Source: Sulfurovum sp. FS08-3 (GTDB lineage Bacteria > Campylobacterota > Campylobacteria > Campylobacterales > Sulfurovaceae). From it: a stretch of 42,757 bases of DNA. The stretch is taken from assembly GCA_000830175.1 (NCBI GenBank), contig JQIS01000004.1:1-42757 (forward strand). The letters are read 5' to 3'. Each line of letters starts with the position of its first letter. The first letter of the stretch is position 1. Shown here one piece after another: positions 9,243 to 26,359 of the stretch. The translations under genes and the position numbers were made by a program. The notes beneath the pieces were generated by a model that was not told where the DNA came from, ran no database searches, and was given only the letters and a program-made list of their open reading frames with translations.

Positions 9243-9268
9243 AAACTCCTCCTAAAGCATGATGATTC

Positions 9269-10287: not shown

Positions 10288-10326
10288 AATCGACTCTCTT
10301 GCATCATAAACTCTCGTGTTTTAGAA

Positions 10327-10332: not shown

Positions 10333-10455
10333 GCATAATGGAGCGGGAGTTGAGAAGCCACCAAAAGAGATGAAATTTTTTGTTTCACATGGTTACAAAT
10401 CCAAAAGTTATGTTTGAATGCAAATTTACTCAAAACACTTTAACAAGCTTTTTGA

Positions 10456-10461
10456 TATGAT
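10456..10461 (+). promoter_or_regulatory. Candidate -10 box of the nuo operon
   Basis: TATGAT in the context TTTTTGATATGATAG, 62 bases before the chosen nuoA start. It would leave a leader of roughly 55 bases. No -35 box is convincing. This is the best candidate I see in the 235-base panC-nuoA gap. Confidence 0.4.
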
Positions 10462-10522
10462 AGTAGCAAACTATTCTCACGAGTATCTCGCAAGAGCATC
10501 TCAAATTAAAAAGGGGTTACTG

Positions 10523-10930
10523 ATGACTCAAGAAGTAATGATGACGCATATTGTTACCGATCATCCATATTTTGGTGTCTTTGTTCTATTTGCAATGACG
10601 GTTGTTGCTTTTCCTGCGACACTGTTTTTGGCACGATTTGTAAGTAGAAAGTTAGCAAGACTTGATACAGAGAAGCTCAAGCTTAGTATCTACGAGTGTG
10701 GTCCAGAGGTTACCAAGCAACCAAACACTATTTCGGTTCAGTTTTATCTGATAGCACTTTTGTTTATTCTCTTTGATGTGGAGATTATCTTTATGTTCCC
10801 ATGGGCGATAGACTTTAAATTGTTGGGTTGGTTTGGTTTTGTTGAGATGATTTTATTTATATTCTTACTAGCAGTAGGATTTATTTACGCATGGAGAAAA
10901 GGAGCACTTGAATGGCACAGCATAAAGTAA
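10523..10930 (+). CDS. nuoA: NADH-quinone oxidoreductase subunit A
   Basis: NuoA is a small membrane subunit of complex I at the junction between the hydrophilic and membrane arms. I choose the ATG at 10523 (135 residues) because AAAGGGG lies about 8 bases upstream and the protein then starts just ahead of the first membrane helix; the open frame extends back to 10418 but that adds a hydrophilic leader untypical of NuoA. Three hydrophobic helices are visible ([18 protein letters not shown], the [19 protein letters not shown] region, and the [15 protein letters not shown] region), and YECGPE and [12 protein letters not shown] are the family signatures. The 3' end overlaps nuoB by 19 bases, and this gene opens the operon. 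Confidence 0.93.
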
Positions 10931-11430
10931 ATTACGCATCAAACGGAGGTTTGCCCGTCGCACTCACCTCGGTGGACAAATTGCTCAACTGGGGACGTTC
11001 TAACTCCCTTTGGCCTTTGACTTACGGTTTGGCTTGTTGTGCTATTGAGATGATGGCAAGTGGTGGTTCACGGTTTGACTTTGACCGATTAGGAACCATC
11101 TTTAGAGCCTCTCCAAGACAATCGGATTTGATGATTTTGGCAGGTACACTCTCCAAAAAACACGCCGAGTTTGCACGCAGACTCTACGACCAAATGCCCG
11201 AACCCAAATGGGTAATCTCTATGGGTTCGTGTGCCAATACAGGCGGGATGTTCAATACCTACGCAACGGTGCAAGGAGTCGATAGAATTGTACCCGTCGA
11301 TATCTATCTACCAGGATGCGCACCTCGTCCAGAGACACTGCAATATGCCGTGATGATGCTCCAAAAAAAGATCCGCAAAGAGTCGGCAAATATGAAGAAA
11401 AATAAAAAACAAGATCTAAGGTTGGTCTAA
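10912..11430 (+). CDS. nuoB: NADH-quinone oxidoreductase subunit B
   Basis: NuoB (172 residues) binds the terminal [4Fe-4S] cluster N2, which passes electrons to quinone. The four cluster cysteines are all visible: the adjacent pair in LACCAIEMM (Cys42, Cys43), Cys107 in [10 protein letters not shown] and Cys136 in LPGCAPRPE. The start at 10912 lies inside the end of nuoA, with GGAG about 8 bases upstream, and the stop TAA shares bases with the nuoC ATG (TAATG), so all three are translationally coupled. The basic, Lys-rich C-terminal tail after residue 150 is longer than in minimal NuoB proteins but not unusual. Confidence 0.97.
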
Positions 11431-12209
11431 TGAGAAAATATACACCAAAAGATAATGTACAAGCAAAAGCCTACTATACGGATAGATTTTGGGTTGCTCC
11501 ACGAGTCCCACGCCAAGCCGTTGAAGATGAGCATTTCAAAGCGGTAGTAGAGGCACTAGGAGAGAGAGTCAAAGAGGCTTATGTAGAGATTAACAACCTC
11601 GTTTTGCATATCGATGCTACCCAAAACTACGCCGTACTTGAAACGCTCAAAGATACCTGCGGATACAAAATTTGTAGCGAAATCAGTGCGGTTGATTATT
11701 TGGCAAAAGAGGGTGAGTTTGAGATATTCTATCAAATGCTCAATCTTGACAAAGCCAAAAGAGTGCGTGTGGTATGCCGTCTCAAAAAGGGATTGGCGAT
11801 TGAGTCCGTCGTGCCGCTCTTCAAAAGTGCCAATTTTGCCGAGCGTGAGATGTACGATATGTTTGGTATCAAAGCCAACAACCACCCATTCCTTAAGCGT
11901 ATTTTAATGCCCGATGATTGGGAAGGGCATCCGCTTCTTAAGACCTATCCGCTTCAAGGGGATGAGTTTGCTTCATGGTATGAGGTAGATAAGATTTTTG
12001 GCAAAGAGTATCGAGATATTATCGGACCCGAAAACAGAGACCCTGCACGTATTGATAGATACGATACGAAGCGATTTTCAAGGGTTGGCTATGAAGTACC
12101 CTTTGATGCAGACATCTCTAGCGGTGAGACCAAAACGCCCATCGAGTACAGTACCACATTCCTAACCGATTACAATACGGGTACGAAGCAATTAGATAAG
12201 AGAAAGTAG
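11430..12209 (+). CDS. nuoC: NADH-quinone oxidoreductase subunit C
   Basis: NuoC (30-kDa subunit, 259 residues) is a peripheral-arm subunit that packs against NuoD and NuoB. Family motifs are ISAVDYL, the FEIFYQML strand, [23 protein letters not shown] and the C-terminal [21 protein letters not shown]. It is a separate gene, not fused to nuoD as in Escherichia coli. The ATG overlaps the nuoB stop by one base. It ends 8 bases before nuoD. The start region (residues 1-30) carries an RVPRQAVED stretch, and an extra tail follows the usual end, neither of which affects the call. Confidence 0.96.
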
Positions 12210-12217: not shown

Positions 12218-13444
12218 ATGCAAGTCACCAATAAATTAACACCTTTTTTTGAGAATCTTAACTTTGAACGAGATGACAATACGATGGTTATCAACTTTGG
12301 TCCCCAGCACCCCTCGGCTCACGGTCAATTGCGACTCGTACTAGAACTTGATGGAGAGTTGGTTACCAAGGCCTATCCCGATATTGGCTACCTCCACCGT
12401 GGTATCGAGAAGATGGCAGAGAATATGACCTATAATGAGTTTTTGCCCACAACCGATAGATTGGACTATATTGCTTCAACTTCCAATAATTATGCTTATG
12501 CTTTGGCAGTAGAGAAGCTTATTGGACTCGAAGTACCTAGACGAGCACAAGTGATACGAACCATGCTTTTGGAGCTAAACCGCATCATTTCACACCTCTT
12601 CTTCCTTGCTACCCATGCACTTGATGTAGGGGCTATGTCGGTATTTCTCTACGCATTTAGAGAACGAGAGTTTGCAATGGATTTGATGGAGGATTATTGC
12701 GGAGCGAGATTGACGCATTCAGCGGTAAGAATCGGGGGCGTTCCTCTTGATTTGCCCAAAGGATGGCTAGAGAATCTCACAATCTATTTGGATAAATTGC
12801 CCCAAAATATCAAAATGTATGAGGATCTCTTAACCGAAAACAGAATTTGGAAGATGAGACTTGAAGATGTGGGAACGCTTAGCCCCGAAGATGCGATGAG
12901 CTGGGGATGCAGTGGTGTTATGTTGCGTGGTAGCGGTATCCCATACGATATTCGCAAAGAAGAGCCTTATGAGCTTTACGGTGAGCTTGATTTTGATATT
13001 CCCATTAGCCAAAGTTGTGACTCTTTGGGGCGATACAAGCTCTACATGGAAGAGATGCGACAATCTAAACGCATTTTGGAGCAACTCATTGAGATGTATC
13101 CTCAAACAGAGCAAAAGCTTATGGCACACGCACCCCAATACATTTCAGCTCCCAAAGAGGAGATAATGACCCAAAACTACGCTTTGATGCAACACTTTGT
13201 ATTGGTGACACAAGGGATGCGACCACCCAAAGGGGAGGTTTATGTGCCTACTGAGTCACCCAAAGGTGAGCTTGGGTTTTATATCAAATCCGAAGGCGAA
13301 CCCTATGCCTATCGACTCAAGTGTAGAGCTCCTAGCTTCTATCATACAGGATTGTTGCAAGAGATTTTGGTAGGTACTTACATTGCCGATGTCGTTACCA
13401 TCATTGGCAGTACCAATATAGTATTTGGAGAGGTGGATAGATAA
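12218..13444 (+). CDS. nuoD: NADH-quinone oxidoreductase subunit D
   Basis: NuoD (49-kDa subunit, 408 residues) forms the quinone-reduction pocket with NuoB and is evolutionarily related to the large subunit of NiFe hydrogenases. The family signatures [34 protein letters not shown] and the C-terminal [10 protein letters not shown]...DVVTIIGS with a final GEVDR are present and full length. The hydrogenase cysteines are absent, as expected. A GGAGAG ribosome binding site precedes the ATG at 12218, and the stop codon TAATG overlaps the next start, keeping the operon coupled. Confidence 0.97.
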
Positions 13445-13677
13445 TGAAACGATACGATTTGAGAAATCTAAAAGATAACTTTTACGATCGCATGATAGAG
13501 CTTATGAAGAGTGATTTAAAAGTGGGCGAAGTGGGGATTTTTCTCTTTGAGATAGGGGATTTTTCTCCCATTCAAAAGAGTGCTGATGTTGTCAAAGAAC
13601 AAGGACATGAACTCATGAATTCGTTAAAGTTCAATGAAGTGGATTGGACCATTGTAGTAAAGAAAAAAGGCTCATAG
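13444..13677 (+). CDS. Small protein in the nuoE position (NuoE stand-in)
   Basis: This 77-residue protein occupies the place of nuoE but is not homologous to it: it has no cysteine, so it cannot hold the [2Fe-2S] cluster N1a, and it is half the usual length. A protein in this position is typical of Campylobacterota complex I (Campylobacter jejuni has unrelated proteins in place of NuoE and NuoF and uses flavodoxin as donor). The stretch KVGEVGIFLFEIGD followed by EQGHELMNSLKF and WTIVVKKK resembles the second half of a TusA/SirA-like fold, which is my inference and weakly supported. The ATG overlaps the nuoD stop by one base and the stop directly abuts the next gene, so it is made in step with complex I. 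It probably acts as a structural adaptor for the FAD subunit that follows. Confidence 0.85.
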   Translation: MKRYDLRNLKDNFYDRMIELMKSDLKVGEVGIFLFEIGDFSPIQKSADVVKEQGHELMNSLKFNEVDWTIVVKKKGS

Positions 13678-15687
13678 ATGTCAGCTGTAATTTTCTCAAC
13701 TTGGAGGGGTGAGTTTATCGACAACCGTGGTAAATCGCCCGATGAGTCGAGTGAATCAGGATTTAAACTACCGCAAAATTACCACGGAGATGTAACCTCT
13801 AAGGCATTTATCGGATGGGATGGTGTTGCAATCTTTCAAGAAGATGTGGATGCTTTGCGTTTAGCTACCGAGTATGCCGCACAATATCAAGTCTATTCCG
13901 AGGCGTGCGGACGTTGTGCTCCTGGGCGATGGGGCGGTAGGATACTCTACGATTTACTTGACAAGATAGCCAGAGGTGAGGGTTCTTATGCCGATACGGA
14001 TCATCTCAAAGAGGTAAGCCAAACGATGATGCTTACTTCCAAATGCGAGATTGGTCGCACCGTGCCTAAGCCTATTTTGGATCTTATGGAGCATTATTGG
14101 GAGCAATTTCGTGATGCTATAGAGCATCAAAAGCCCTCTAAGCACTATCATGATGATATTAAATACATTGCCAAAGTCACCGCACCTTGTACCGATATGT
14201 GTCCTGCGTTGGTGGATATTCCCGCTTACATCGAAGGGGTAAGGGATATGCAATTTGGTGACTCATTGGTAGCGACACGCCAAACCATGCCACTAGCCCA
14301 TACGTGCGGACGTGTTTGTCCTCATCCTTGTGAAGATGCGTGTCGTCGTGCCAATTTGGACGAGCCTATCTCTATTATGGAGCTTAAGCGTTTGGGTGCT
14401 GATTATGAAACCGACCACGCTTTGCCATGGCAACATCCTCATCCCCCTAAGCCTTTACGCAACGATGGCAAAAAAGTAGCTATTATCGGTGCGGGTCCTG
14501 CGGGTCTTAGCGCGGCGTACTATTTGGCGTTGGAGGGTATCAAGGTAGATATTTTTGAAGAGTTGCCTGTAAATGGTGGTGAAGTAGCCGTGGGTGTACC
14601 GCAATATCGTATGCCCATAGAGAAGTACCAAAAAGATATTGATTTGGTATTGGAACTTGAAGCGGTTGATATTTACAACAACCATCGTGTCGATGCTGAG
14701 CGTCTCAAAGAGATAGAAGAGGAGTACGATGCTACGCTTTTGGCGTTTGGTGCAAGACTCTCCAAAGCGGTTCGAGCCAAAAATGAACGAGCCGATATGC
14801 AGGGCTATTGGGGTGCTATTGCCATGCTTGATAAGGTGAACTTATGGAGCAAATACGGCATTGGCTCACCTGCGAGTAATGAACTCAAAGATAAAACCGT
14901 TGTGTGCGTCGGGGGAGGATTTACCTCTATGGACGTGGTGCGATGTTCGGTTCGAGAGGGAGCCAAAAAGGTGATTATGCTCTATCGACGTGATGAGAAG
15001 ACGATTATTCAAAACACGACCTATGAAGAGTATCATGAGGCGGTTGAAGAGGGTGTTGAGTTTATTTTTCACTCGGCTATCGAAGAGATTTTTGATGAAA
15101 ACAATCAACTCAAAAAGCTTTTGGTTAATAGATTTGAGCTTATGCCTGACCCCGAAGGTGGACGACCTCAATTGGTTAAAGTTGAAGGGGGAGATTTTGA
15201 GATAGAGTGCGATTATCTTATTCCTGCCGTTTCACAAGCCCTCGATACGCATATACTGCCCAAAGAGTGGGGGTTGGCAATGACCTCATGGGACTCTATC
15301 CAAACCAACGGCAAAGATTATATGACTTCACGTCCAGGATTGTTTGCAGCGGGGGATTGTGAGTATGGACCCATGACTATTGTCAATGCGGTAGGTCAAG
15401 CCAAACGAGCAGCATCGGTCATTAGTCGATACATCTATGATGGCAAAGTAACGCTTCTTGACGATGAGATTATGGAAGATCATCTCGCACGACTCAAAGT
15501 CTATAACAAAGATGAAAAAGTAACGGGTTGGATGCCAGGGTTGCCTAGAATGGTGAGTGAAAAGCTAAGCGTCCAAGAGCGAATCGACAACAATCGAGAG
15601 GTGAATTTGGGCTTCACGGGAGAAGAGGCGTTGAGCGAAGCCCAACGGTGTATGCGATGTTATTATATCTCAATGGTGGCGGTGTAG
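13678..15687 (+). CDS. NuoF-type Fe-S domain fused to a GltD-like FAD/NAD(P) oxidoreductase
   Basis: This 669-residue protein replaces NuoF. Residues about 55-150 match the C-terminal Fe-S domain of NuoF (SEACGRCAPGRWGG and later SKCEIGRTVPKP), but the third cluster cysteine is Gly83, leaving Cys77, Cys80 and Cys123. The FMN/NADH-binding Rossmann part of NuoF is missing. From residue 165 it is a GltD/NfnB-like protein: cysteine motifs CTDMCP (171-175) and HTCGRVCPHPCEDAC (209-222), FAD site IIGAGPAGLSAA (269-280), NAD(P) site VGGGFTSMD (411-419) followed by YRR (436-438), and a final FAD motif LFAAGDCEYGP. A C-terminal AQRCMRC adds two cysteines. It is likely the electron-input subunit, taking electrons from NAD(P)H or another carrier into the NuoG proteins. 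It abuts its neighbours within one base. Confidence 0.88.
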   Translation: MSAVIFSTWRGEFIDNRGKSPDESSESGFKLPQNYHGDVTSKAFIGWDGVAIFQEDVDALRLATEYAAQYQVYSEACGRCAPGRWGGRILYDLLDKIARGEGSYADTDHLKEVSQTMMLTSKCEIGRTVPKPILDLMEHYWEQFRDAIEHQKPSKHYHDDIKYIAKVTAPCTDMCPALVDIPAYIEGVRDMQFGDSLVATRQTMPLAHTCGRVCPHPCEDACRRANLDEPISIMELKRLGADYETDHALPWQHPHPPKPLRNDGKKVAIIGAGPAGLSAAYYLALEGIKVDIFEELPVNGGEVAVGVPQYRMPIEKYQKDIDLVLELEAVDIYNNHRVDAERLKEIEEEYDATLLAFGARLSKAVRAKNERADMQGYWGAIAMLDKVNLWSKYGIGSPASNELKDKTVVCVGGGFTSMDVVRCSVREGAKKVIMLYRRDEKTIIQNTTYEEYHEAVEEGVEFIFHSAIEEIFDENNQLKKLLVNRFELMPDPEGGRPQLVKVEGGDFEIECDYLIPAVSQALDTHILPKEWGLAMTSWDSIQTNGKDYMTSRPGLFAAGDCEYGPMTIVNAVGQAKRAASVISRYIYDGKVTLLDDEIMEDHLARLKVYNKDEKVTGWMPGLPRMVSEKLSVQERIDNNREVNLGFTGEEALSEAQRCMRCYYISMVAV

Positions 15688-15688: not shown

Positions 15689-17938
15689 ATGAGCAAAGAT
15701 AAAGAGATTAAAATGATTACAGTGACCATTGATGGCAAAGTGTGTCAAGCTCCTTATGGGAAAACAATTTTGCAAATAGCACGAGAGAACGGTATCTATA
15801 TCCCTACGATGTGCTATTTGACCAAAGTTAAGCCTATTGCTTCGTGTCGTATGTGCGTAGTAGAGATTGAAGGAGTCGAGGGGATGATACTCTCGTGTCA
15901 AGAGGTAGCAACTGAAGGTATTCATGTCACAACCAACACCCCACAACTCTATACACAACGTCAAAACATCATGAAACTCTACGATGTCAATCATCCTTTG
16001 GAGTGCGGTGTATGCGACAAAAGCGGCGAGTGCGATTTGCAAAACAAAACATTAGAGTTTAACGTCGCTACGCAAAACTTCACCACACGAGAACCCCATC
16101 GAACCGTAGAGAATTGGGGCTTTATCTCCTATGACCCTGCTTTGTGCATTATGTGCGAGAAGTGTGTGCATGTTTGCAATGAGATAGTAGGCGATGAGAG
16201 CTTAGCCATTTCGGTGGGTGGATACAAATCGACGATTGTAAACAAAAACCTTGAAGATGGATGTCATGAGTGCGGTGAGTGTATGTCGGTGTGTCCTGTA
16301 GGAGCATTGGTAAGTACGCACTTTAAATACAGCTCCAACGCATGGGAACTTACCAAGATTCCAGCTGCTTGTTCGCATTGCAGCAGCGGTTGCGAACTTA
16401 GCTACGAAGTCAAGCAAGATAAGATTTATCGTGTAACCAACAACTATGAGTTTAGTTCACTCTGTGGGGCAGGGCGTTTTGGTTACGATTTTGAAAATCG
16501 CACCAATGGCAAAGATGAGATTGATTTTAATAATGCATTGGATGCCTTTGCAAAAGCCGATACGATTCGATTTAGTGCTACGATTAGCAACGAAGAGGCT
16601 TTAATTTTGCAAAGATTAAAAGAAGCCAAAGGTTACAAGCTAGTGTGCGATGAAGCCAAAGGGTATCAAGATTTTCTTAAAGCCTATTCAAGCATCAGTG
16701 GCAAATCGCTCTACAGCGGAGATTTGGCAACCATCAAAAGCTCCAAGGTGATTGTAGTCTTTGGAAGTATGGTTGATAGCGATAACCCGATGGTGAAGTA
16801 CGCTATCTCAACGGCTAGTAAACAACATCGTGCGCGTGTGATCTATGTGCACCCTATTGAAGATGCAAACCTCTCCAATATTGTGACGCAATACATCAAA
16901 TACGAAGTGGGTAGCGAAGAGGGAGTAGCGGCACTGTTGGCTCATGCTTTGGTTGATAGAGACAATCTTGATGAAGATACCAAAGCATTTTTGGACAATT
17001 TGGATATAGGCAATCTAAGTGCTGAGAGCAATGTGGGCGAGGAGGAGATTGATGCGTTGGTTCAATCTCTAGGCAAAAGAAAAGATTTTACTTTGGTGGT
17101 GGGTGCAGACCTCTATAGCCATCCAAGGGTAGAAAATATTGCAAAACTTATTGCATTGATTGAGAAATACACCTCTTTTGATACAGTAGCTATTCCACCT
17201 GCGACCAATGCTTTGGGTGTTGCACTGATTTGCGAACTCGACAATCAAGTAGGCGAATATACGATAGGATACAATAGCCGTGGTGATTTTACGTTGAGTG
17301 CTTTGGGGGAGGGGGATTTGGATATGCCCTCACTCAATCAACAAGAGGGAACCTTTACAACCATTAATAAACAAGTCGTTCCTACAAACGTAGCATTGGA
17401 GTACAAGGGTTATATTCTCAATGATATAGCTTCGGCGTTGGGCGTAAAGAAACAATATACCATTGATTATACGCAAGAGTTACCTATTGACAAAGGGTAT
17501 CAAGGCGTTGCTTTTGATGATTTGAAGATAGATTTTGGTATCAACGGTGAAGATTTGCGAGGCTATAGACTCCAAACACACGGTGTAGATAGCAACAGTA
17601 TGCTAGAAGAGATTGCTCCCTTGCCAACCTATGATGGATTGGTACTCTATCGAGCCAATTCAATCAATCAATTTTCGCCTTTTACCCACAAAGCAAAAGA
17701 GCTTCAATCGCAAGAGTTTCTTAAAGGCTCCAATCAATTTGCACTTGCAGCAAAGATAAGCGATGGAGATGAGGTGAAATTTGAGCTTGATGGCATAAAA
17801 TACACAAGAGTGTTTAAGATTGATACATCAATGAAAGGTACAGTAGCAATTAATCCAACAAATGATAAAGGATTAAGTAGTACTTTGGTATCCTCTTATA
17901 GATACGCTAAATTAATCCTTGATGTTCAAAACAAATAA
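15689..17938 (+). CDS. nuoG: NADH-quinone oxidoreductase subunit G, first copy
   Basis: NuoG carries the Fe-S chain of the peripheral arm. This 749-residue copy has a ferredoxin-like [2Fe-2S] site (Cys42, Cys53, Cys56, Cys70), the His/Cys cluster N5 motif (His102, Cys106, Cys109, Cys115), two full CxxCxxCxxxC motifs (Cys153-163 and Cys192-202), and an N7-type site (Cys228, Cys231, Cys235, Cys259). Ordinary NuoG has only four cysteines in the double-motif region, so here two [4Fe-4S] clusters are likely, as in hydrogenase-type ferredoxin domains. The rest is a degenerate molybdopterin-oxidoreductase-like domain shorter than in Escherichia coli. The start is 1 base past the previous stop. The next gene is a paralogue, presumably arisen by tandem duplication, and both may sit in one complex. 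Confidence 0.94.
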   Translation: MSKDKEIKMITVTIDGKVCQAPYGKTILQIARENGIYIPTMCYLTKVKPIASCRMCVVEIEGVEGMILSCQEVATEGIHVTTNTPQLYTQRQNIMKLYDVNHPLECGVCDKSGECDLQNKTLEFNVATQNFTTREPHRTVENWGFISYDPALCIMCEKCVHVCNEIVGDESLAISVGGYKSTIVNKNLEDGCHECGECMSVCPVGALVSTHFKYSSNAWELTKIPAACSHCSSGCELSYEVKQDKIYRVTNNYEFSSLCGAGRFGYDFENRTNGKDEIDFNNALDAFAKADTIRFSATISNEEALILQRLKEAKGYKLVCDEAKGYQDFLKAYSSISGKSLYSGDLATIKSSKVIVVFGSMVDSDNPMVKYAISTASKQHRARVIYVHPIEDANLSNIVTQYIKYEVGSEEGVAALLAHALVDRDNLDEDTKAFLDNLDIGNLSAESNVGEEEIDALVQSLGKRKDFTLVVGADLYSHPRVENIAKLIALIEKYTSFDTVAIPPATNALGVALICELDNQVGEYTIGYNSRGDFTLSALGEGDLDMPSLNQQEGTFTTINKQVVPTNVALEYKGYILNDIASALGVKKQYTIDYTQELPIDKGYQGVAFDDLKIDFGINGEDLRGYRLQTHGVDSNSMLEEIAPLPTYDGLVLYRANSINQFSPFTHKAKELQSQEFLKGSNQFALAAKISDGDEVKFELDGIKYTRVFKIDTSMKGTVAINPTNDKGLSSTLVSSYRYAKLILDVQNK

Positions 17939-17952
17939 GATGAGTGGTAAAT

Positions 17953-20418
17953 ATGAGTAGCAATGAAATTACAGTAAAAATTGACGGTAAAGAGTGCAAG
18001 AGCGTAGAGGGAGAGTATATCCTCAATGTCGCTCGTGCAAATGATATATTTATACCTGCGATTTGTTATTTAACACGATGTTCTCCGACTCTTGCTTGTC
18101 GCATCTGCCTTGTCGAAGCAGACGGTAAACGAGTCTATGCATGCAATGCAAAAGTCAAAGATGGCATGGAGGTCACAGTAACAAACGAAGAGATACTTCA
18201 AGAACGACGAGCTATTATGGAGGTTTATGATGTCAATCACCCTCTACAATGCGGTGTTTGTGATCAAAGCGGTGAGTGTGAGTTGCAAAACTACACGCTT
18301 GAATTAGCCGTCGATTCACAAAGCTATGCCATTCCCGACACCATTCGTCAAAACAAAAACTGGAGCGATGTGCTTCACTACGATGCGGGGCTTTGTATTG
18401 TATGCGAACGTTGCGTGACAGTTTGCAAAGATATGATTGGTGATAGCGCTATCAAAACAGGACCTCGTGGAGGCGAAGCGCTTCCCAAAGATCTCAAAGA
18501 TACCATGCCAAAAGATGCTTATGCGATGTGGAACAAGTTGCAAAAATCCATCATTGTACCGAGCAATGGAACGGATTTTACCGATTGCAGCGATTGCGGA
18601 GAGTGTACAGCCGTTTGTCCTGTGGGTGCTTTGGTAAGTCGAGACTTTGTCTATAAATCCAATGCGTGGGAGCTTAAGCGTATTCCTGCTACGTGTGCAC
18701 ATTGCAGTAGCGGTTGCCAGATTTATTATGAGACCAAACACACCTCCATCTCAGACCCAACGGAAAAAATCTATCGTGTTACCAATGAGTGGAACTATGT
18801 ATCGCTTTGTGGAGCAGGGCGTTTTGGATACGATTTTGAAAACAGAGTCCAAGGCAAAGATGAAGAGGCATTTGCACTAGCCATTAAGGCATTTGAAACA
18901 GCCCAAAGCATCAAATTCAACTCCGCAATTACCAACGAAGAGGCATTTATGCTCCAACGTCTTAAGGAGAAGTTGGGTGTTAAGCTTATCAATCATGATG
19001 CTAAAGCTTTCAAAGATTTCCTCACTTCCTACGCCAAAGCAAGTGGAAAAGGACTCTATGGTGGCGATCTCAAAGAGGTCATGAAGAGCGATTTTGTTAT
19101 TAGCGTAGGGGCATCTTTGCGAAACGACAACCCCAATGCAAGGTACGCTTTTAACCACGTCCAAAAGATGAACAAAGGAGCAGGACTCTACTTTCATCCC
19201 GTTGGTGATACGTTGGTTTCTACTTTTGGGAAGAGCGTTGAGATTTTTACGCACCAAGTAGGTCAAGAGGAGTTGGCACTCTATTTGATACTTGATCTTT
19301 TTGCAGACAAAGAGAGACTTGATGATGAAATCAAAGAGTATCTAGCCTCTTTCCACCGACATGAAAAACGTATCATCAAAGAGAAAATCATGGAAGAGGT
19401 AAGCCAAAGCGTCACCGACAAAGAGACAGGTGAGACCAAAGAGGTAATCAAAAAAGTCCCTAAAACAATCGAAAAAGAGATTGAAGTTGAAGTCAATGGA
19501 TTGGTTGAGATGCTAGGTGGCAACGATGCATTCTATGAAAACTTTGAAAAGATGAAAAGCAAAAAAGAGAGTTTCTCACTTATCATTGGAGAAGATCTCT
19601 ACTACCATCCTCATTTACACAACCTTTCACGATTGGTAGCTCTCATAGAAGAGGTTTGTGGTATGACCCTTGTGATGATACCGCCACGAACCAACTCACT
19701 AGGCGTTGCTATGATTTGTGATTTGGATGAAGAGGAGAGCGGATACGTCATTGGTTACAACGAACACGGACACTTCCGTTTGGGTTCACGAGGATTTAGT
19801 AAGCTTGATATTCCCGCACTCAATCAACAAGAGGGAACGTTTACCAATATCAACAAGCGAGTCGTACCCACCAACGCAGCACTTGATTATCATGGATATG
19901 AACTCAATGATATATTGAATGCTTTGGGTATCGGAATGCGTCAAACGATTGATTTTACTCCCCAATTGGGTAGGATTGAGGGATTCAAAAGTCAAAATTT
20001 CGACGATTTACCCAATGGCTATACCAATGCAGGAGAGGAGCTACGAGGCTACGCTCTTGAAGTGGTTGAGGTAAACAAAGAGGAGATAAAAGTCGTTAAG
20101 TTTAATGAGAGCATTGTGATAAACGAGGGCGAAATTGCTTATCGATGCAATCCTCAGCGACAATTTAATGATTTTACAGATCGTTCATCGCAAATCAATG
20201 AGGAGTTTGGGGCTTATGTAAGTCCAAACAAAGCCAAAGAGTTGGGTGAAGAGATTGAGGTGATTTTTGAGCAAGGGCAATCTTTCAAACTCAAGGTGAT
20301 TGTGGATGATAGAATGCAAGGGGATATTATCGCTATTCCAGATTATAAGAGCTATCAAAATGTCTATGGTGTCTTTGGTAGAGATCGATACAAAAAAGTA
20401 ACAATTAAAAAGGTGTAA
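17953..20418 (+). CDS. nuoG: NADH-quinone oxidoreductase subunit G, second copy
   Basis: This is a second, divergent NuoG of 821 residues from the ATG at 17953; an in-frame GTG at 17944 would add three residues and neither has a strong ribosome binding site. It keeps every metal site of the first copy: Cys38, Cys49, Cys52, Cys64; His96, Cys100, Cys103, Cys109; Cys148-158 and Cys212-222; and Cys248, Cys251, Cys255, Cys286. Shared segments such as SNAWEL, CAHCSSGC/CSHCSSGC, LCGAGRFGYDFENR and LNQQEGTFT show common ancestry. It differs by an insertion near residue 172-208 between the two cluster motifs and by a strongly charged Lys/Glu insertion (encoded at about 19359-19500). Two nuoG genes in one operon are known in some Campylobacterota; how the copies share the electron path is not known to me. 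Confidence 0.94.
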   Translation: MSSNEITVKIDGKECKSVEGEYILNVARANDIFIPAICYLTRCSPTLACRICLVEADGKRVYACNAKVKDGMEVTVTNEEILQERRAIMEVYDVNHPLQCGVCDQSGECELQNYTLELAVDSQSYAIPDTIRQNKNWSDVLHYDAGLCIVCERCVTVCKDMIGDSAIKTGPRGGEALPKDLKDTMPKDAYAMWNKLQKSIIVPSNGTDFTDCSDCGECTAVCPVGALVSRDFVYKSNAWELKRIPATCAHCSSGCQIYYETKHTSISDPTEKIYRVTNEWNYVSLCGAGRFGYDFENRVQGKDEEAFALAIKAFETAQSIKFNSAITNEEAFMLQRLKEKLGVKLINHDAKAFKDFLTSYAKASGKGLYGGDLKEVMKSDFVISVGASLRNDNPNARYAFNHVQKMNKGAGLYFHPVGDTLVSTFGKSVEIFTHQVGQEELALYLILDLFADKERLDDEIKEYLASFHRHEKRIIKEKIMEEVSQSVTDKETGETKEVIKKVPKTIEKEIEVEVNGLVEMLGGNDAFYENFEKMKSKKESFSLIIGEDLYYHPHLHNLSRLVALIEEVCGMTLVMIPPRTNSLGVAMICDLDEEESGYVIGYNEHGHFRLGSRGFSKLDIPALNQQEGTFTNINKRVVPTNAALDYHGYELNDILNALGIGMRQTIDFTPQLGRIEGFKSQNFDDLPNGYTNAGEELRGYALEVVEVNKEEIKVVKFNESIVINEGEIAYRCNPQRQFNDFTDRSSQINEEFGAYVSPNKAKELGEEIEVIFEQGQSFKLKVIVDDRMQGDIIAIPDYKSYQNVYGVFGRDRYKKVTIKKV

Positions 20419-20421: not shown

Positions 20422-21408
20422 ATGGATGCATTGATTATAGAAACCGTTGTCAAAGCGATAGTGGTACTCCTTGTGATTTCGGCACTTGCGGGGTTTGGTA
20501 CCTACTTGGAGAGAAAAGTACTTGCATTTATGCAACGACGATTAGGACCTATGCACGTAGGTCCTTTTGGATTATTACAGATTTTGGCCGATGGTATCAA
20601 GCTCTTTACCAAAGAGGATATTGTCCCTCAGCACGCCAATCGATTAATTTTTATGGTAGCTCCTGCTATTACGGCAGCAACAGCATTTATTGCTCTTGCA
20701 GCAATCCCACTCTTCCCTGAGTTTACAATTTTTGGATACACGATTCGTCCCATTATTGCCGATTTGAATGTGGGTATTTTGTTTGTATTGGGTGCTATGG
20801 CTTCAGGACTCTACGGACCGCTTCTTGCGGGTATGGCACAAGCCAACAAATGGGGAATTATTGGTTCGGCTCGTACGGCTATTCTCTTTTTGAGTTATGA
20901 GGTGGTAACGGGACTTTCCATTTTGGCTCCTATTATGATAGTAGGTTCGCTTTCGCTTATTGATTTTAACAATGCTCAAGCAGGAGGAGTAAGCGATTGG
21001 ATGGTGTGGAAACAACCTGTTGCGTTTGTACTCTTTTTAATTGCAGGATTTGCAGAGACTAACCGAACGCCGTTTGACTTACTAGAACATGAAGCCGAAG
21101 TTATCTCAGGATACGCTACGGAATACAGCGGTATGCGATGGGGTATGTTCTTCATTGGAGAGTATGCCAACATGATTACAGTCGCCTTTTTAGCCTCTTT
21201 GGTTTTCTTTGGTGGATTTAACCCTATTGGATTTATCCCTGGATTTTTGGCAATTATTTTGAAAGTATCATTTTTCTTCTTTTTGATGCTATGGGTTAGA
21301 GCTTCGTGGCCACACGTTAGACCCGATCAGTTGATGTGGCTATGTTGGAAAGTGCTTATGCCTATCGCAATATTAAACATCTTAATTACGGGCATAGTAC
21401 TGCTATAG
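20422..21408 (+). CDS. nuoH: NADH-quinone oxidoreductase subunit H
   Basis: NuoH (328 residues) is the membrane subunit at the foot of complex I that lines the quinone entry tunnel and links redox chemistry to proton pumping. About eight hydrophobic helices are visible. Family signatures are TYLERKVLAFMQRRLGPMHVG near the N-terminus (residues 27-47 approximately), the loop LLQILADGIKLFTKE, AETNRTPFDLLEHEAEVISGY and the C-terminal RASWPHVRPDQLMWLCWK. The ATG follows the nuoG stop by 3 bases with AAGG just upstream. Nothing odd is seen, so the membrane arm is of ordinary type although the input end is not. Confidence 0.97.
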   Translation: MDALIIETVVKAIVVLLVISALAGFGTYLERKVLAFMQRRLGPMHVGPFGLLQILADGIKLFTKEDIVPQHANRLIFMVAPAITAATAFIALAAIPLFPEFTIFGYTIRPIIADLNVGILFVLGAMASGLYGPLLAGMAQANKWGIIGSARTAILFLSYEVVTGLSILAPIMIVGSLSLIDFNNAQAGGVSDWMVWKQPVAFVLFLIAGFAETNRTPFDLLEHEAEVISGYATEYSGMRWGMFFIGEYANMITVAFLASLVFFGGFNPIGFIPGFLAIILKVSFFFFLMLWVRASWPHVRPDQLMWLCWKVLMPIAILNILITGIVLL

Positions 21409-21417: not shown

Positions 21418-22041
21418 ATGAGTTTAGAAAAATATAAAGATAGAAATATAGGAAATCAAAATTACAAATTGATTGGACATGAAGCTTTTCCTCAAACAAA
21501 TGGAGAGAAGTTTGAGCGAGTCATGAAGCGAATGGTTAAGGGTGAGCTTTTTGTGGGACTTTGGGTGACTGTGCGTACTATGTTTGAAGCACTCTTCAAG
21601 GGTCAAATGCACACCACAAAATACCCCTTTGAGAAGTTGCCTATCTCACCACGCTATCGTGCCATTCATGAGATGCTAAGACTTCTTGAGAGCGGTCACT
21701 ATCGATGCATTGGTTGCGGATTGTGTGAACAAATTTGTATTTCAGATTGTATCAGAATGGATACACGCTACGATGAAAATCAACGCAAAGAGGTGAGTGA
21801 ATACACCATCAACTTTGGTCGATGTATCTTTTGCGGTTATTGTGCCGAAGTGTGTCCAGAGTTGGCTATCGTACATGGTCCACGATACGAGACCTCTTCA
21901 GAGCAAAGAGCAAGTTTCTCGCTTTTTGAGGATATGCTTACTCCTATTGATGCACTTAAGCACCAAAAAGAGTATCCTGGCTTTGGTGCGGTAAGTCCCA
22001 ATGCCGATGAGAATATCAAAAAAACGCCATTAGCGTATTAA
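21418..22041 (+). CDS. nuoI: NADH-quinone oxidoreductase subunit I
   Basis: NuoI (207 residues) is the 2x[4Fe-4S] ferredoxin-like subunit holding clusters N6a and N6b, which relay electrons to N2 in NuoB. Both motifs are complete: Cys97, Cys100, Cys103, Cys107 in RCIGCGLCEQIC, and Cys136, Cys139, Cys142, Cys146 in RCIFCGYCAEVCP. The first motif has Ile instead of the usual Pro after the fourth cysteine, and an additional Cys111 follows. The N-terminal amphipathic region (about 30-62) should lie on the membrane. A GGAGGG ribosome binding site precedes the ATG at 21418. Confidence 0.97.
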   Translation: MSLEKYKDRNIGNQNYKLIGHEAFPQTNGEKFERVMKRMVKGELFVGLWVTVRTMFEALFKGQMHTTKYPFEKLPISPRYRAIHEMLRLLESGHYRCIGCGLCEQICISDCIRMDTRYDENQRKEVSEYTINFGRCIFCGYCAEVCPELAIVHGPRYETSSEQRASFSLFEDMLTPIDALKHQKEYPGFGAVSPNADENIKKTPLAY

Positions 22042-22055: not shown

Positions 22056-22622
22056 ATGGAACAATTTGCATTTTATCTCTTTTCAGTCCTAACCATAGGA
22101 CTCTTTTTGGTAACGGTTCTAAGCAACAATGTCCTCTATGCGATGACATCATTGGCTGCTGGAATGGTTATCATTTCAGGTTTTTTCTTTATTTTAGGTG
22201 CGGACTTCTTGGGCGTTGTTCAGTTGATAGTCTATGTGGGTGCAGTCATGGCACTCTACTCTTTTGGTATGATGTTTTTCGATGCGACACGTGAAATCAA
22301 AGAGAAAAACAGCAACGCCTATTTGGTATTTTTTCTAGGCGGTATGATTGCATTGCTTTTGGTAGTGATGTTTAGCGCTCCTATTATGGGAGAGGGAATT
22401 GTGGCAATGTATCCATCGCCTGAAGGTGCCAATAATCCACAAGCCGTTGGTTTGGTACTCTTTACCAAATACCTTGTACCCTTTGAGGTTGCTGCTGTCA
22501 TGCTTTTAGTCGCTATGATTGCGGGGATTATTTTGGCAGGTAAAAAGATGGATGATAGCTTAACGACCAAAGATGAAAATCATGAAGAGGAAATGACCTT
22601 TTCATTAAAGGATGTAAGATGA
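22056..22622 (+). CDS. nuoJ: NADH-quinone oxidoreductase subunit J
   Basis: NuoJ (188 residues) is a membrane-arm subunit with five predicted helices, linking NuoH to the antiporter-like subunits. The third helix shows the typical VVQLIVYVGAVMALYSFGMMFF stretch, where the conserved Tyr and Val-Gly-Ala form the flexible pi-bulge helix of complex I. The ATG at 22056 has an AGAGGAGGA ribosome binding site. The stop overlaps the nuoK start by four bases (ATGA), showing coupled translation. The acidic and polar C-terminal tail after residue 165 is cytoplasmic. Confidence 0.95.
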   Translation: MEQFAFYLFSVLTIGLFLVTVLSNNVLYAMTSLAAGMVIISGFFFILGADFLGVVQLIVYVGAVMALYSFGMMFFDATREIKEKNSNAYLVFFLGGMIALLLVVMFSAPIMGEGIVAMYPSPEGANNPQAVGLVLFTKYLVPFEVAAVMLLVAMIAGIILAGKKMDDSLTTKDENHEEEMTFSLKDVR

Positions 22623-22921
22623 TAGAACTGAGTCATTACCTTGTAGTATCGGGCATACTCTTTTCGATAGGAGTGGTGGGTGTATTAAGAAGAAAGAATC
22701 TATTGATGCTTTTCTTTGCGACGGAGATTATGTTAAATGCCGCCAATATTGCGTTTGCGGCAGTATCATCCTATTACGGCGACCTATCGGGTCAAATGTT
22801 TGCCTTTTTTATTATCGCTGTAGCAGCGAGTGAAGTGGCAGTAGGATTGGGTCTCTTGATAGTACTCTACAAGAAACAAGGCACTCTTGACCTTGATGAT
22901 CTTGCGGTGATGAAAGGATAG
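22619..22921 (+). CDS. nuoK: NADH-quinone oxidoreductase subunit K
   Basis: NuoK (100 residues) is the smallest antiporter-related subunit, with three helices. The sequence includes the family signature LLMLFFATEIMLNAANIAFAA, with the membrane glutamate (in ATEIMLN) needed for proton transfer, and a second acidic residue in AASEVAVGLG. Length is exactly that of the family. It overlaps nuoJ by four bases and ends 2 bases before nuoL, so it is embedded in the translationally coupled run. Confidence 0.96.
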   Translation: MIELSHYLVVSGILFSIGVVGVLRRKNLLMLFFATEIMLNAANIAFAAVSSYYGDLSGQMFAFFIIAVAASEVAVGLGLLIVLYKKQGTLDLDDLAVMKG

Positions 22922-22923: not shown

Positions 22924-24825
22924 ATGGAAAGTTTAGTATATGTAGCACTTTTTGCACCACTAGTGGGGTCACTCTTTGCCGCACTCTTTGGTATGAGTCC
23001 AAAAAATTTGATAACAGGCATAGCAACATCGGCACTACTCTTTATCTCATGGGTAGCTTCGGTATTGCTTTTGATTCATGTTGTAGGAAATGGAGCGGTT
23101 TCGACAACGTTGATGGATTGGATTGGAGCGGGTGATTTGCTCATTCAATTTGGTTTTCAAGTCGATGCTGTGACGGCGGTTATGATGGTGGTTGTGACGA
23201 CGGTTTCAACTGTAGTACATGTTTACTCCATCGGATACATGGATCACGACAAAGGATTTAACCGCTTCTTCTCCTATCTATCGGCGTTTGTTTTCTCTAT
23301 GCTTGTTTTGGTTATGAGTGACAACTTTGCGGGACTCTTTATCGGCTGGGAAGGCGTTGGGGTTTGTTCGTGGTTGTTAATTGGTTTTTGGTATCACAAA
23401 GAGGATGTTTCAACCGACATCAATCCCTCTATTTCACCCTCATGGGCAGCCAACGAAGCTTTCATTATGAACCGTATTGCTGACCTTGGAATGCTTATTG
23501 GCATCTTCTTAATTTACTGGAATACAGGATCACTTACTTATGATACATTCTTTGCTTCGATTCCTACTATGGATGCTCAATTGTTGGTAGCTATTGCTGT
23601 GGCACTCTTCATTGGTGCTATGGGTAAATCGGCACAATTTCCACTCCATACATGGCTTGCTGATGCGATGGAGGGTCCAACACCTGTTTCGGCACTTATT
23701 CACGCTGCGACCATGGTAACGGCAGGGGTCTATTTGGTTATTCGAGCCAATCCACTCTACTCTCATGAAGCCGTAGAAGGGGTAAGCCTCTTTATTGCTT
23801 ATTTGGGTACTTTTGTAGCGATGTTTGCAGCTACGATGGCTTTGGTTAATCGAGATCTCAAAAGAATTATCGCCTACTCTACACTCTCACAATTGGGATA
23901 TATGTTTGCAGCGGCAGGATTGGGTGCTTATTGGGTAGCACTTTTTCATCTTGCAGCACACGCATTTTTCAAAGCGTTACTCTTCTTGGGTGCGGGTAAC
24001 GTCATGCACGCAATGCACGATGAGCTTGATATTTTCAAAATGGGGGGATTGAGCAAAGTGATGAAATGGACTTACATCTATATGGGTCTTGCTTCATTGG
24101 CACTTGCAGGTATCTTTCCGTTGGCAGGTTTCTACTCCAAAGATACGATATTAGAGGTTGCTATTAATGAAGATACCTACTTGATATGGTTTGCTCTTTG
24201 GGTGACGGCAGGTCTTACAGCGTTTTATAGCTTCAGACAAGTCTTCCTTACCTTTAGTGGAAATGAGCGATACAAAGAACTCGGTCATCGCCCTCATGAG
24301 ATGCCCAATTATGTATTGATTGCTATGGCACCTTTGGCTATTTTGGCAGTTATTTTTGGTTTTGTCTTTATGGATTCGTTTCAAGCATTCACCTCGACGG
24401 TACTTCCTGCTTACGAGATGAGCCACGCTACACATGAAATAGCATGGGTATTTATTATTTTGACAACGCTTATTGCTTTAAGTGGTATTTTTTATGCTTA
24501 CAAAAAATACGGTGCAGGACTTATTCGTGATGAGAAAGTAGAAAGTAGCTTTGTCTATAAGTTGCTCTCCAATCAATACTATATACCAAAATTTTACGAT
24601 TCAATGTTTACAAAACCCTATAGAGAAATCTCTGATATGCTATGGAAAAGAGTGGATCTTAAAATTGTTGATGCGATTGTTGATGCGATTGCCAAATTTA
24701 TCTACTTTAGCGGGGATAAATCCAGAGCAATGCAAACAGGTAACTTGTCACACTACCTCAACTGGATGGCAGCAGGGGTCTTGTTGGTTGCCGTGATTGT
24801 GTCACTTTCAGCGGTATTAGGTTAA
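22924..24825 (+). CDS. nuoL: NADH-quinone oxidoreductase subunit L
   Basis: NuoL (633 residues) is the distal antiporter-like proton-pumping subunit of complex I. It shows the usual 14-16 hydrophobic helices, the N-terminal YMDHDKGFNRFFSYLSAFVFSM region, GWEGVGVCSWLLIGFWY with the key membrane glutamate, GKSAQFPLHTWLADAMEGPTPVSALIHAATMVTAGVYL with the essential lysine, and the C-terminal extension that supplies the long lateral helix. It starts 2 bases after nuoK. Nothing unusual was seen in the catalytic residues. NuoL, NuoM and NuoN together indicate a full proton-pumping membrane arm. Confidence 0.97.
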   Translation: MESLVYVALFAPLVGSLFAALFGMSPKNLITGIATSALLFISWVASVLLLIHVVGNGAVSTTLMDWIGAGDLLIQFGFQVDAVTAVMMVVVTTVSTVVHVYSIGYMDHDKGFNRFFSYLSAFVFSMLVLVMSDNFAGLFIGWEGVGVCSWLLIGFWYHKEDVSTDINPSISPSWAANEAFIMNRIADLGMLIGIFLIYWNTGSLTYDTFFASIPTMDAQLLVAIAVALFIGAMGKSAQFPLHTWLADAMEGPTPVSALIHAATMVTAGVYLVIRANPLYSHEAVEGVSLFIAYLGTFVAMFAATMALVNRDLKRIIAYSTLSQLGYMFAAAGLGAYWVALFHLAAHAFFKALLFLGAGNVMHAMHDELDIFKMGGLSKVMKWTYIYMGLASLALAGIFPLAGFYSKDTILEVAINEDTYLIWFALWVTAGLTAFYSFRQVFLTFSGNERYKELGHRPHEMPNYVLIAMAPLAILAVIFGFVFMDSFQAFTSTVLPAYEMSHATHEIAWVFIILTTLIALSGIFYAYKKYGAGLIRDEKVESSFVYKLLSNQYYIPKFYDSMFTKPYREISDMLWKRVDLKIVDAIVDAIAKFIYFSGDKSRAMQTGNLSHYLNWMAAGVLLVAVIVSLSAVLG

Positions 24826-24835
24826 GGAGCGTTTG

Positions 24836-26359
24836 ATGGATCATATTTTAACTATTTTGGTATTTTTTCCAGCATTTGCTGGATTGCTTGGTTTTGTTGT
24901 CGATAAAGGGAGTGCAAGGGCTTACGGTATTGCCGTTGCCACTATTGAACTCTTTATCGCACTTTGGTTATGGATGAGTTTTGATGGCTCTAATGGAGGT
25001 ATGCAGTTTGTAGAGATGTTGCCTCTTGTACCCGATTTTGGTATTAGTTACTATTTGGGAGTGGATGGAATTTCTCTTTTTATTGTTATTATGGCTGCTT
25101 TAATGACATTGGTGGGGATGATTAGTATGAGCATTGAGAAAGATGTTAAAAACATGATTATCTCTTTGCTCTTTCTTGAAATGACAATGGTGGGTGTCTT
25201 TGTGGCACTTGATGCGATTGTATTTTATCTTTTTTGGGAACTCTCATTGGTACCAATGCTCTATATTATTGGAGCTTGGGGAGGACCTCGAAGAGTCTAT
25301 GCGGCGGTTAAGTTCTTTCTCTACACCTTTTTAGGTTCACTTATTATGCTTGTGGGTATGCTCTTCTTGGCATATCTCTATCATGATGTAACAGGCACAT
25401 GGAGTTTTGCTATTACCGATTGGTATGCATTGGTGCTTCCTATGGAGTATCAAGTGTGGCTCTTTATTGCCTTTTTTATGGGTTTTGCTATCAAAGTCCC
25501 TATGTTCCCATTCCATACATGGTTGCCTTACGCTCACGGACAAGCTCCAACAATTGGTTCAGTTATCCTTGCGGCGGTACTTCTTAAGATGGGAACGTAC
25601 GGATTTGTACGCTTTTCATTGCCCATATTCCCCGATGCTTCGGTAATGATGATTACGCCTATAGCCATCTTGTCGCTTATCATGGTGGTCTATACCGCAA
25701 TGGTGGCTTACGCTCAAAAAGATATTAAACAAGTGATTGCCTACTCATCGGTTTCGCACATGGGTATTATTATGCTAGGTGTTTTTGCAATGAACGCCGA
25801 GGGTATTAGCGGTTCTATCTTCTTGATGCTCTCACACGGTATCGTTTCGGGTGCACTGTTCATGCTTGTTGGTGTTATTTACGATAGATTGCACACCAAA
25901 GAGCTTGATAACTTTGGCGGATTGGCTGCGGTAATGCCAAAGTATGCTACTATTTTTGGTATTATGCTCATGGCATCGGTAGGACTTCCTCTCACGATTG
26001 GCTTTGTAGGGGAGTTTTTGGTACTTTTGGGCTTTTATAAAGTTTCACCCATGATGACAATCGTTGCGGGTTTGACAATTATTATTGGTGCGATTTATAT
26101 GCTTAGTATCTATAAGCGAACTTTTTTTGGTCCTATTACGCATGATGAAAATAAAAAACTCAAAGATTTAAACAGCAAAGAGATTGTTTCGTTGGTGCCT
26201 TTGGTAATGATTGTCATTTGGTTGGGTATCTATCCAAAGCCAGTATTAGAACCTATAGATAACAGTGTCAAAGCTTTGGTATCTTTTATGGAGAAAAAAG
26301 CACAAACGCAAGAGGCTAAGGATATTATTGTTAGCACAAATGCTGGGGAGGATAAATAA
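24836..26359 (+). CDS. nuoM: NADH-quinone oxidoreductase subunit M
   Basis: NuoM (507 residues) is the second antiporter-like proton-pumping subunit. I choose the ATG at 24836, with AAGGAG ending 6 bases upstream; a TTG at 24833 is too close to that site. Signatures are FWELSLVPMLYIIGAWGG with the membrane glutamate, GFAIKVPMFPFHTWLPYAHGQAPTIGSV with the functional lysine, and the discontinuous helix around YSSVSHMGIIMLG. The C-terminal tail (KAQTQEAKD) is charged and cytoplasmic. Its stop and the nuoN start share a base (TAATG). Confidence 0.97.
   Translation: MDHILTILVFFPAFAGLLGFVVDKGSARAYGIAVATIELFIALWLWMSFDGSNGGMQFVEMLPLVPDFGISYYLGVDGISLFIVIMAALMTLVGMISMSIEKDVKNMIISLLFLEMTMVGVFVALDAIVFYLFWELSLVPMLYIIGAWGGPRRVYAAVKFFLYTFLGSLIMLVGMLFLAYLYHDVTGTWSFAITDWYALVLPMEYQVWLFIAFFMGFAIKVPMFPFHTWLPYAHGQAPTIGSVILAAVLLKMGTYGFVRFSLPIFPDASVMMITPIAILSLIMVVYTAMVAYAQKDIKQVIAYSSVSHMGIIMLGVFAMNAEGISGSIFLMLSHGIVSGALFMLVGVIYDRLHTKELDNFGGLAAVMPKYATIFGIMLMASVGLPLTIGFVGEFLVLLGFYKVSPMMTIVAGLTIIIGAIYMLSIYKRTFFGPITHDENKKLKDLNSKEIVSLVPLVMIVIWLGIYPKPVLEPIDNSVKALVSFMEKKAQTQEAKDIIVSTNAGEDK

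Follow-up and report, generated by a model that had tools for sequence, protein, structure and literature searches.

The window analysed here is a stretch of 42,757 nucleotides of Sulfurovum sp. FS08-3 (contig JQIS01000004.1, designated C56 in a genome of 2.54 Mb and 68 contigs), and its forward strand carries a complete nuoA-N operon for complex I in which two divergent nuoG genes lie in tandem. The interval between nuoD and nuoH encodes four proteins, termed here in gene order E′ (NuoE-like protein), F′ (chimeric subunit), G1 (upstream NuoG) and G2 (downstream NuoG); the usual reduced form of G1, found in relatives, is termed X. The genes are closely packed, with intergenic spaces of 0 (E′-F′), 1 (F′-G1), 5 (G1-G2) and 3 (G2-nuoH) bases, and no further nuoF was found in the operon of the window (Table 1).

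The preliminary description of this DNA had claimed a tandem pair of divergent nuoG genes that differ in length, keep full sets of Fe-S ligands and are probably both active. The two open reading frames were found where it had placed them, and their products differ in length as described (749 residues for G1 and 821 or 824 for G2, depending on the start codon). Both proteins match NF006305, the NuoG model for Campylobacterota (cut-off 591), with scores of 865 bits for G1 and, over the full length, 1093 bits for G2, and two full-length NuoG matches of such quality are beyond chance. The general NuoG equivalog TIGR01973 (cut-off 470) was not reached by either protein (235 and 176.5 bits for G1 and G2, respectively), a shortfall that concerns the general model rather than NuoG identity, both proteins being of the divergent Campylobacterota type. 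G1 and G2 are 40% identical over 802 columns (581 bits), and G2 has two insertions relative to G1: the ferredoxin-like domain contains one, and the other, charged and helical, lies around residues 480-520. Pfam [2Fe-2S], NADH-G and molybdopterin Fe4S4 domains were recognized in each, and the solved structures matched by each include NuoG, formate dehydrogenase and [FeFe] hydrogenase subunits.

Motifs in G1 and G2 were assigned to clusters by what we take to be their counterparts in the Thermus and Escherichia coli subunits. In the window both proteins have the ligands for N1b, N5, N4, an extra [4Fe-4S] cluster and N7, with those for N1b at C42, C53, C56 and C70 of G1 and C41, C52, C55 and C67 of G2, and those for N5 at H102, C106, C109 and C115 of G1 and H99, C103, C106 and C112 of G2. 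The N1b, N5 (including the His) and N4 ligands are invariant in 94/94 G1 sequences and in G2 from 91/91 loci with both NuoG proteins (two-G loci) and 53/53 loci with a single one (one-G loci). Comparison of the window with its nearest relative gave ratios of nonsynonymous to synonymous substitution rates (dN/dS) of 0.12 for G1 and 0.077 for G2, indicative of purifying selection; together with the conservation of the ligands across relatives, this suggests that both copies are active. The predicted fold of G1 has a predicted local distance difference test score (pLDDT) of 82.0 and a predicted template modelling score (pTM) of 0.83, and is weakest in the Fe-S part. When compared with solved structures, the model aligned with Nqo3 (4hea_3) over 647 residues with a Z of 25.6 and with formate dehydrogenases at Z values of up to 27.2, and the Foldseek results concur. 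On this model, G1 has the fold of Nqo3/NuoG along its whole chain, the C-terminal molybdopterin-type part included. A further NuoG-like Fe-S region was observed elsewhere in the genome (G000:C20:702-1520), in a frame of 470 residues and 28% identical to residues 7-266 of G1.

Table 1. Genes and protein segments of the complex I operon in the window
Feature	Position	Strand	Basis or remark
nuoA	10541..10930	+	NF006303, residues 42-170 of the open reading frame, which opens at 10418; model starts at residue 42
nuoB	10912..11430	+	NF005012 and TIGR01957 above cut-off
nuoC	11430..12209	+	NF006304 above cut-off
nuoD	12218..13444	+	TIGR01962 above cut-off
E′, 77-residue protein at the NuoE position, "nuoX" of epsilon-type complex I	13444..13677	+	PF16514 NADH-UOR_E
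F′, chimeric subunit, 669 residues	13678..15687	+	PF10589, PF14691 and PF07992 above cut-off
F′ N3-domain part, residues 73-145	13894..14112	+	PF10589
G1, second NuoG beside the core one, putative partner of F′, 749 residues	15689..17938	+	NF006305; predicted fold
G1 Fe-S part, residues 1-270 (N1b, N5, N4, extra [4Fe-4S], N7)	15689..16498	+	Lost along with F′ in single-NuoG relatives
G1 residues 346-500, first stretch retained as X in single-NuoG relatives	16724..17188	+	Alignment, blastp
G1/X signature D439-x-G441-x4-E446-x6-E453	17003..17047	+	G1/X alignment; absent from G2 rows
G1 residues 636-749, second stretch retained as X	17594..17935	+	Alignment, blastp
G2, putative core NuoG, 824 residues from GTG 17944 (821 from ATG 17953)	17944..20418	+	NF006305 full length
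nuoH	20422..21408	+	Position and sequence; labelled likewise in relatives
nuoI, two [4Fe-4S]	21418..22041	+	NF004542 and TIGR01971 above cut-off
nuoJ	22056..22622	+	Order and sequence
nuoK	22619..22921	+	Order and sequence
nuoL	22924..24825	+	Order and sequence
nuoM	24833..26359	+	Order and sequence
nuoN	26359..27849	+	Order and sequence; NF004444 above cut-off

E′ and F′ are encoded directly upstream of G1. E′ matched PF16514 with 139 bits (cut-off 25) and PDB entry 2lxr, "NADH dehydrogenase I subunit E", with an E-value of 9.7e-26, the latter an HP1264-like structure. F′ is composed of a NuoF C-terminal (N3) domain, a GltD-like [4Fe-4S] domain, and flavin adenine dinucleotide (FAD) and NAD(P) domains, in that order. 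PF07992 (99.8 bits), PF14691 (77.2 bits) and PF10589 were all matched above their cut-offs, and NF009410 was matched with 371 bits, under its cut-off of 516. Only positions 297-409 of the 410 positions of the NuoF model TIGR01959 were matched by F′, which lacks the flavin mononucleotide (FMN)/NADH domain of NuoF. Judged by its domains, then, the entry subunit is not a NuoF of the kind that carries FMN and NADH in canonical NADH-oxidising complex I, and has instead the features of a GltD-like NAD(P)H flavoprotein, namely a Pyr_redox_2 domain, a DPD-type [4Fe-4S] domain and FAD and NAD(P) motifs. The cluster cysteines of F′, the third N3 position apart, are invariant in 93/93 sequences, and the FAD and NAD(P) motifs are kept in at least 92/93, with minor substitutions at two FAD-motif positions. 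By analogy with GltD, a YRRDE motif after the second nucleotide fold hints at NADPH. The best match of the F′ N3 domain was NfnB (9n5u_B, E 6e-15), with HydB next, and G1 matched NfnA (9n5u_A). Longer proteins with insertions were observed in one genus (coded f2g44; loci L213, L214, L215, L216 and L124), with 732-962 residues for F′, 812-1046 for G1 and 921-1012 for G2.

The distribution of these genes was surveyed in 298 Campylobacterota genomes. NF006305 was matched at the default E-value in 284/298 and above cut-off in 240; above cut-off, it was matched in none of 14 control genomes. Long G1 matches of at least 46% identity and distinct from the G2 of the same genome were found in 62 genomes, and a search with the F′ N3 domain identified 79/298 genomes at E ≤ 1e-25 which, with one locus whose F′ runs off its contig (L206), gives 80/298. 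Sixty-one of the 79 fall among the 62 G1 genomes; of the other 18, 13 carry G1 within the operon or as a fragment where the contig ends, and the remaining five (G155, G166, G189, G196 and G295) gave G1-type rows of their own in the G1 search. Loci were then compared in 160 stretches, 80 from surveyed genomes and 80 from named contigs (Sulfurospirillum, Sulfurimonas, Sulfuricurvum, Hydrogenimonas, Nitratiruptor and related metagenome-assembled genomes, none titled Campylobacter or Helicobacter); the coded groups (f1-f13) were given family names by us from the literature and from tree position beside named loci, with f1, the family of the window, tentatively taken as Sulfurovaceae.

Genes were labelled with hidden Markov models built from the first set of stretches, so that the labels are not independent of that set, and a stricter count followed, limited to the 142/160 loci whose E′ and G2 lie in the same stretch. 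Seventeen of the 18 uncounted loci are truncated at a contig end or spread over more than one contig, and in the other, L094, E′ is fused to X. The two-G state, with F′, full G1 and G2, was found in 89/142 loci. In the remaining 53/142, the one-G state, F′ is absent, and all 53 carry a shorter G1-derived protein: a typical X in 47, an X-sized protein closer to G1 in 4, and proteins of 483 and 88 residues in one locus each. Mixed states were not found among the 142, be it F′ without full G1 or full G1 without F′, and a blast-only count of 60 stretches (59 genomes) divided them likewise (33 versus 26 genomes). The G1/G2 pair is widespread in the phylum and strictly tied to F′, and none of the two-G and one-G loci examined lacks G2 where its stretch extends that far. 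Median gaps across loci are 6 (F′-G1), -1 (G1-G2), -1 (E′-X) and -1 (X-G2) bases.

ATP-citrate lyase (PF16114) was found in 75/298 genomes, 62 of which are among the 80 with F′; 18 genomes have F′ alone and 13 the lyase alone. The tree provides six independent pairs for this comparison, of which about two change in the same direction and none in the opposite, too few for a test, and a link of F′ with autotrophy by the reductive tricarboxylic acid (TCA) cycle is suggestive only. Three further observations concern individual loci or groups. In L092, from a single-contig genome with intact G1 and F′, G2 lies in two overlapping frames of 309 and 537 residues (8681-9607 and 9438-11048), a split attributable to a frameshift or a sequencing error. 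Sulfurospirillum sp. isolate 355-202 (L136) has a two-G operon within an otherwise one-G group, and its G1 groups with that of G096, from the family of the window; this may reflect either transfer of some of the operon from one lineage to another or a mixed bin. Several members of the groups coded f6g12 and f3g16 have a NuoF-type frame of canonical length (407-435 residues) and match the Campylobacterota NuoG only distantly, which fits the mention of canonical nuoEF in Arcobacter butzleri in excerpts of PMC6682613.

X corresponds to the cofactor-free C-terminal fold of G1, comprising about residues 346-500 and 636-749. In blastp searches G1 matched X through residues 344-510 and 616-743, with the Fe-S part unmatched for typical X, whereas G2 matched three X proteins, weakly. 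X occupies little else than the two stretches in a joint alignment and lacks every Fe-S ligand present in G1. E406, D439, E446 and E453, among others, are invariant in 54 G1 and 44 X sequences, and G441 is present in 98% and 100%, respectively. Four of five X proteins scanned matched the NuoG model NF006305 under its cut-off, their Pfam matches were weak, and no match to a NuoF-type family was found for these five in the family libraries. The traditional name NuoF for X is thus unsupported by the libraries, which point, below threshold, to NuoG. For structure prediction, X of Sulfurospirillum diekertiae was used with an alignment of 37 sequences (15 X and 22 G1), and gave a confident model (pLDDT 93.8, pTM 0.91). 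This model aligned with formate dehydrogenase H over 275 residues at 3.0 Å (Z 24.0), within chain range 138-693 and with a large middle piece skipped; Nqo3 and NuoG were among its Foldseek matches. X is under purifying selection, with dN/dS values of 0.10-0.20 in six pairs, including 0.10 for the young pair L162/L187. In L094 (4211-5263; genome G231), E′ and X are fused in frame in a protein of 351 residues, with 97 bits for the E′ part and 277 bits for the X part.

The state of the locus has switched repeatedly. On a tree of NuoD, G2, NuoH and NuoI (98 rows, FastTree), 12 state changes were counted, with 11 independent pairs on starred branches; a tree of NuoD, NuoH and NuoI without G2 (IQ-TREE, quick mode) gave 11 changes, 9 of them forced by starred branches; and a tree of the C-terminal columns shared by G1 and X gave 10 changes, 7 forced, with X nested within the G1 sequences and four long X rows unreliably placed. 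At least 9-11 independent switches between the two states are needed. Several one-G cases are young, lying within two-G genera and being nearest to the G1 of their neighbours: in Sulfuricurvum L162/L187, in Sulfurimonas L188 and L194, and in the family of the window L205, which has a two-G genus-mate (G096). The protein of 483 residues is an intermediate in Sulfurimonas (L161), in which F′ and the Fe-S part are gone and the middle of G1 is retained. Parsimony by itself gives no direction of change; it is this intermediate, the full-length homology of G1 and G2 and the nesting of X that point to reduction of G1 to X. Loss of one copy without effect across relatives, which the preliminary description named as evidence against its proposal, was not seen in that form: G1 is never lost alone, but goes with F′ and leaves a remnant.

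N7 was considered as a bridge between G1 and G2. The G2 N7 is kept in 86/91 two-G loci, five lacking it, versus 14/53 one-G loci, but there are only three N7 changes on the tree and 0/11 independent pairs change with the G1 state, so the bridge was rejected and the pattern ascribed to shared ancestry. The G2 N7 cysteines are replaced in the sampled Campylobacter-, Sulfurospirillum- and Arcobacter-like groups and retained in the Helicobacter-like ones, and the G1 N7 is retained in 93/94 sequences.

These data are best explained, with a probability that we put at roughly 70%, by one complex I that holds G1 and G2 at once, in which G1 links F′ to the G2 core and loss of F′ leaves a scaffold behind. 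From the sequence comparisons we infer that G1 and G2 share a particle and act in series, that NAD(P)H is the donor, and the order of clusters and direction of flow that follow. Electrons of NAD(P)H would enter F′ at its GltD-like flavin, move along the [4Fe-4S] clusters and N3-like site of this subunit, and pass through the clusters of G1 and then those of G2, the core NuoG that would feed NuoI and the membrane arm, to quinone; in autotrophs the flow could be reversed, driven by the proton motive force. The C-terminal molybdopterin-type fold of G1, probably free of cofactor, would be a scaffold within the arm, holding E′ as well. In a lineage giving up entry through F′ for flavodoxin or ferredoxin, as others showed for Campylobacter jejuni, F′ and the Fe-S wire of G1 would be deleted, and the remaining scaffold would be the small protein known as NuoY or "NuoF" (Cj1574c, HP1265). 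According to excerpts of PMC4178425, cj1574c and cj1575c stand in for nuoEF in C. jejuni and flavodoxin supplies its complex I with electrons through Cj1574c; in excerpted text elsewhere, HP1265 is listed as "chain F (NuoF)" (PMC3561388) and the pair in place of nuoEF is named nuoXY (PMC6682613). Given that X appears to be the C-terminal part of G1, stands beside G2 and belongs to a type of subunit reported to be functional, that part of G1 would belong to the complex containing G2. Because E′ and X are fused in L094, it probably contacts E′, which both states have.

Several points weigh against this interpretation. X beside G2 places the C-terminal fold in the G2 complex, but not full-length G1 in the same place. 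In F′, Gly83 takes the place of the third N3 cysteine (of four) in 93/93 sequences, also as aligned to NfnB, so that transfer from F′ to G1 may bypass a normal N3, and the cluster at this site may be absent or of another type. The ligands of the extra [4Fe-4S] of G1 are missing in 6/94 sequences, and those of its N7 in 1/94. The equivalence of X with Cj1574c and HP1265 is a probable one, judged by family, by size and by location, with nuoG on one side and the PF16514 gene on the other. Finally, in one metagenome-assembled genome (L181, 6184-6447), the G1 remnant of 88 residues consists of several short in-frame pieces without the conserved core, with E′ and G2 intact; the scaffold may be dispensable there, or the assembly faulty.

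A more elaborate form of the single-complex interpretation is doubtful. It would have two full NuoG relays in series, in a peripheral arm exceeding any known one by roughly the length of a NuoG. There would be two entries, one for NAD(P)H through F′-G1 and the other for flavodoxin or ferredoxin at the core of E′, the G1 C-terminal part and G2, and electrons could be confurcated or bifurcated among NAD(P)H, ferredoxin and quinone. If true, the complex would supply reduced ferredoxin for the reductive TCA cycle, and Campylobacter and Helicobacter, with their flavodoxin-only complex I, would have a stripped form of it, whose "NuoF" is a relic of the second NuoG.

The preliminary description had left open whether one complex contains both NuoG proteins or two alternative complexes share one membrane arm. 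In the latter case, F′-G1 would make a NAD(P)H form and G2 a flavodoxin/ferredoxin form, with the NuoG proteins competing for one site. Such an arrangement agrees with the strict tie of F′ to full G1, with the sufficiency of G2 alone in single-NuoG lineages and with the complete ligand sets of two proteins that both look like whole NuoG folds (G1 by model). It is nevertheless unlikely, because repeated loss of F′ should then have deleted G1 wholly, yet the C-terminal part was repeatedly kept beside G2, under purifying selection and once fused to E′. With a G1-derived protein beside G2 in 53/53 one-G loci, the option of one complex is favoured and that of two complexes disfavoured.

It is improbable that F′ and G1, although encoded in the nuo operon, stand outside complex I as a soluble NAD(P)H:acceptor enzyme resembling modules of the NfnABC or HydABC type. 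Although soluble relatives exist for both modules (NfnB and HydB for the F′ N3 domain, NfnA and bifurcating hydrogenase subunits for G1), all complete loci have these genes placed after nuoD and before nuoG, the C-terminal part of G1 is kept under purifying selection in species without F′, E′ and X are fused in L094, and the operon has no separate acceptor subunit for E′, F′ and G1. It is very improbable that G1 is a redundant duplicate decaying towards loss, with X as the end stage: although X was produced many times, an intermediate (L161) and a near-complete relic (L181) exist and G1 evolves somewhat faster than G2, the invariant G1 ligands, the confident fold of X and the selection upon it, its persistence in whole families (the sampled Campylobacteraceae and Sulfurospirillaceae, most Arcobacteraceae and Helicobacteraceae), the simultaneous loss of F′ each time and the role in flavodoxin oxidation that excerpts of PMC4178425 report second-hand for Cj1574c in C. 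jejuni all argue otherwise.

As the preliminary description had anticipated, the predicted enzyme is unlike standard complex I. It resembles the canonical 14-subunit complex of E. coli, Thermus and mitochondria in the membrane arm, in NuoB, C, D and I and in the NuoG family, but has F′ for NuoF, no canonical NuoE, two NuoG proteins and an N3 site that is one cysteine short. With epsilon-type complex I of Campylobacter and Helicobacter (nuoXY), as described in excerpts of PMC6682613 and PMC4178425, it shares gene order, the PF16514 protein E′ after nuoD and the G2 type; unlike that complex, it has F′ and a full G1 where the epsilon type has the short nuoY (equivalent to X) and no flavoprotein. 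NUO-2 of Nitrospina gracilis and Kuenenia is likewise a variant complex I with a rebuilt NuoF, which carries extra [4Fe-4S] clusters, and a NuoG with one additional [4Fe-4S]. It is a second complex and is proposed to serve ferredoxin reduction (PMC3578206, in excerpts); its NuoF is a chimera with ferredoxin-like clusters, whereas the window has one operon, two NuoG proteins and a GltD-like flavoprotein. NfnABC (PDB 9n5u, 9n5v) and NuoEFG-like bifurcating modules also mix NuoF, NuoG and flavoprotein modules, a likeness at the level of sequence. NfnABC is a soluble enzyme, and unlike the system in the window it has neither the complex I membrane arm nor tandem NuoG proteins. The partial complex I without E, F and G in Nautilia, from the same phylum, likewise has no canonical NADH module, according to excerpts of PMC2628731. 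In a family that we regard as Nautilia-like (f4), most genomes had no NuoG-type match at the default E-value; neither NuoG nor F′ was found, unlike in the window.

How complex I gains and loses electron-entry modules is a long-standing question, for which the Campylobacterota supply a natural series from full F′-G1-G2 through an intermediate without the Fe-S domain to a minimal X-G2, reached repeatedly. The series also offers an identity for the puzzling subunit that replaces NuoF in the flavodoxin-linked complex I of C. jejuni and Helicobacter pylori, namely that of a C-terminal remnant of a second NuoG, which would predict the subunit's place, its lack of a cofactor and its contact with the small E′. 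Among the open-licence papers searched, none was found that proposes a repeated entry-module series or an origin of this subunit from a second NuoG.

Outside the operon, the reverse strand of the window encodes a protein of 635 residues (7335-9242) with DinB, FGE-sulfatase and methyltransferase domains, a layout that we take to be that of ovothiol/ergothioneine-type synthases.

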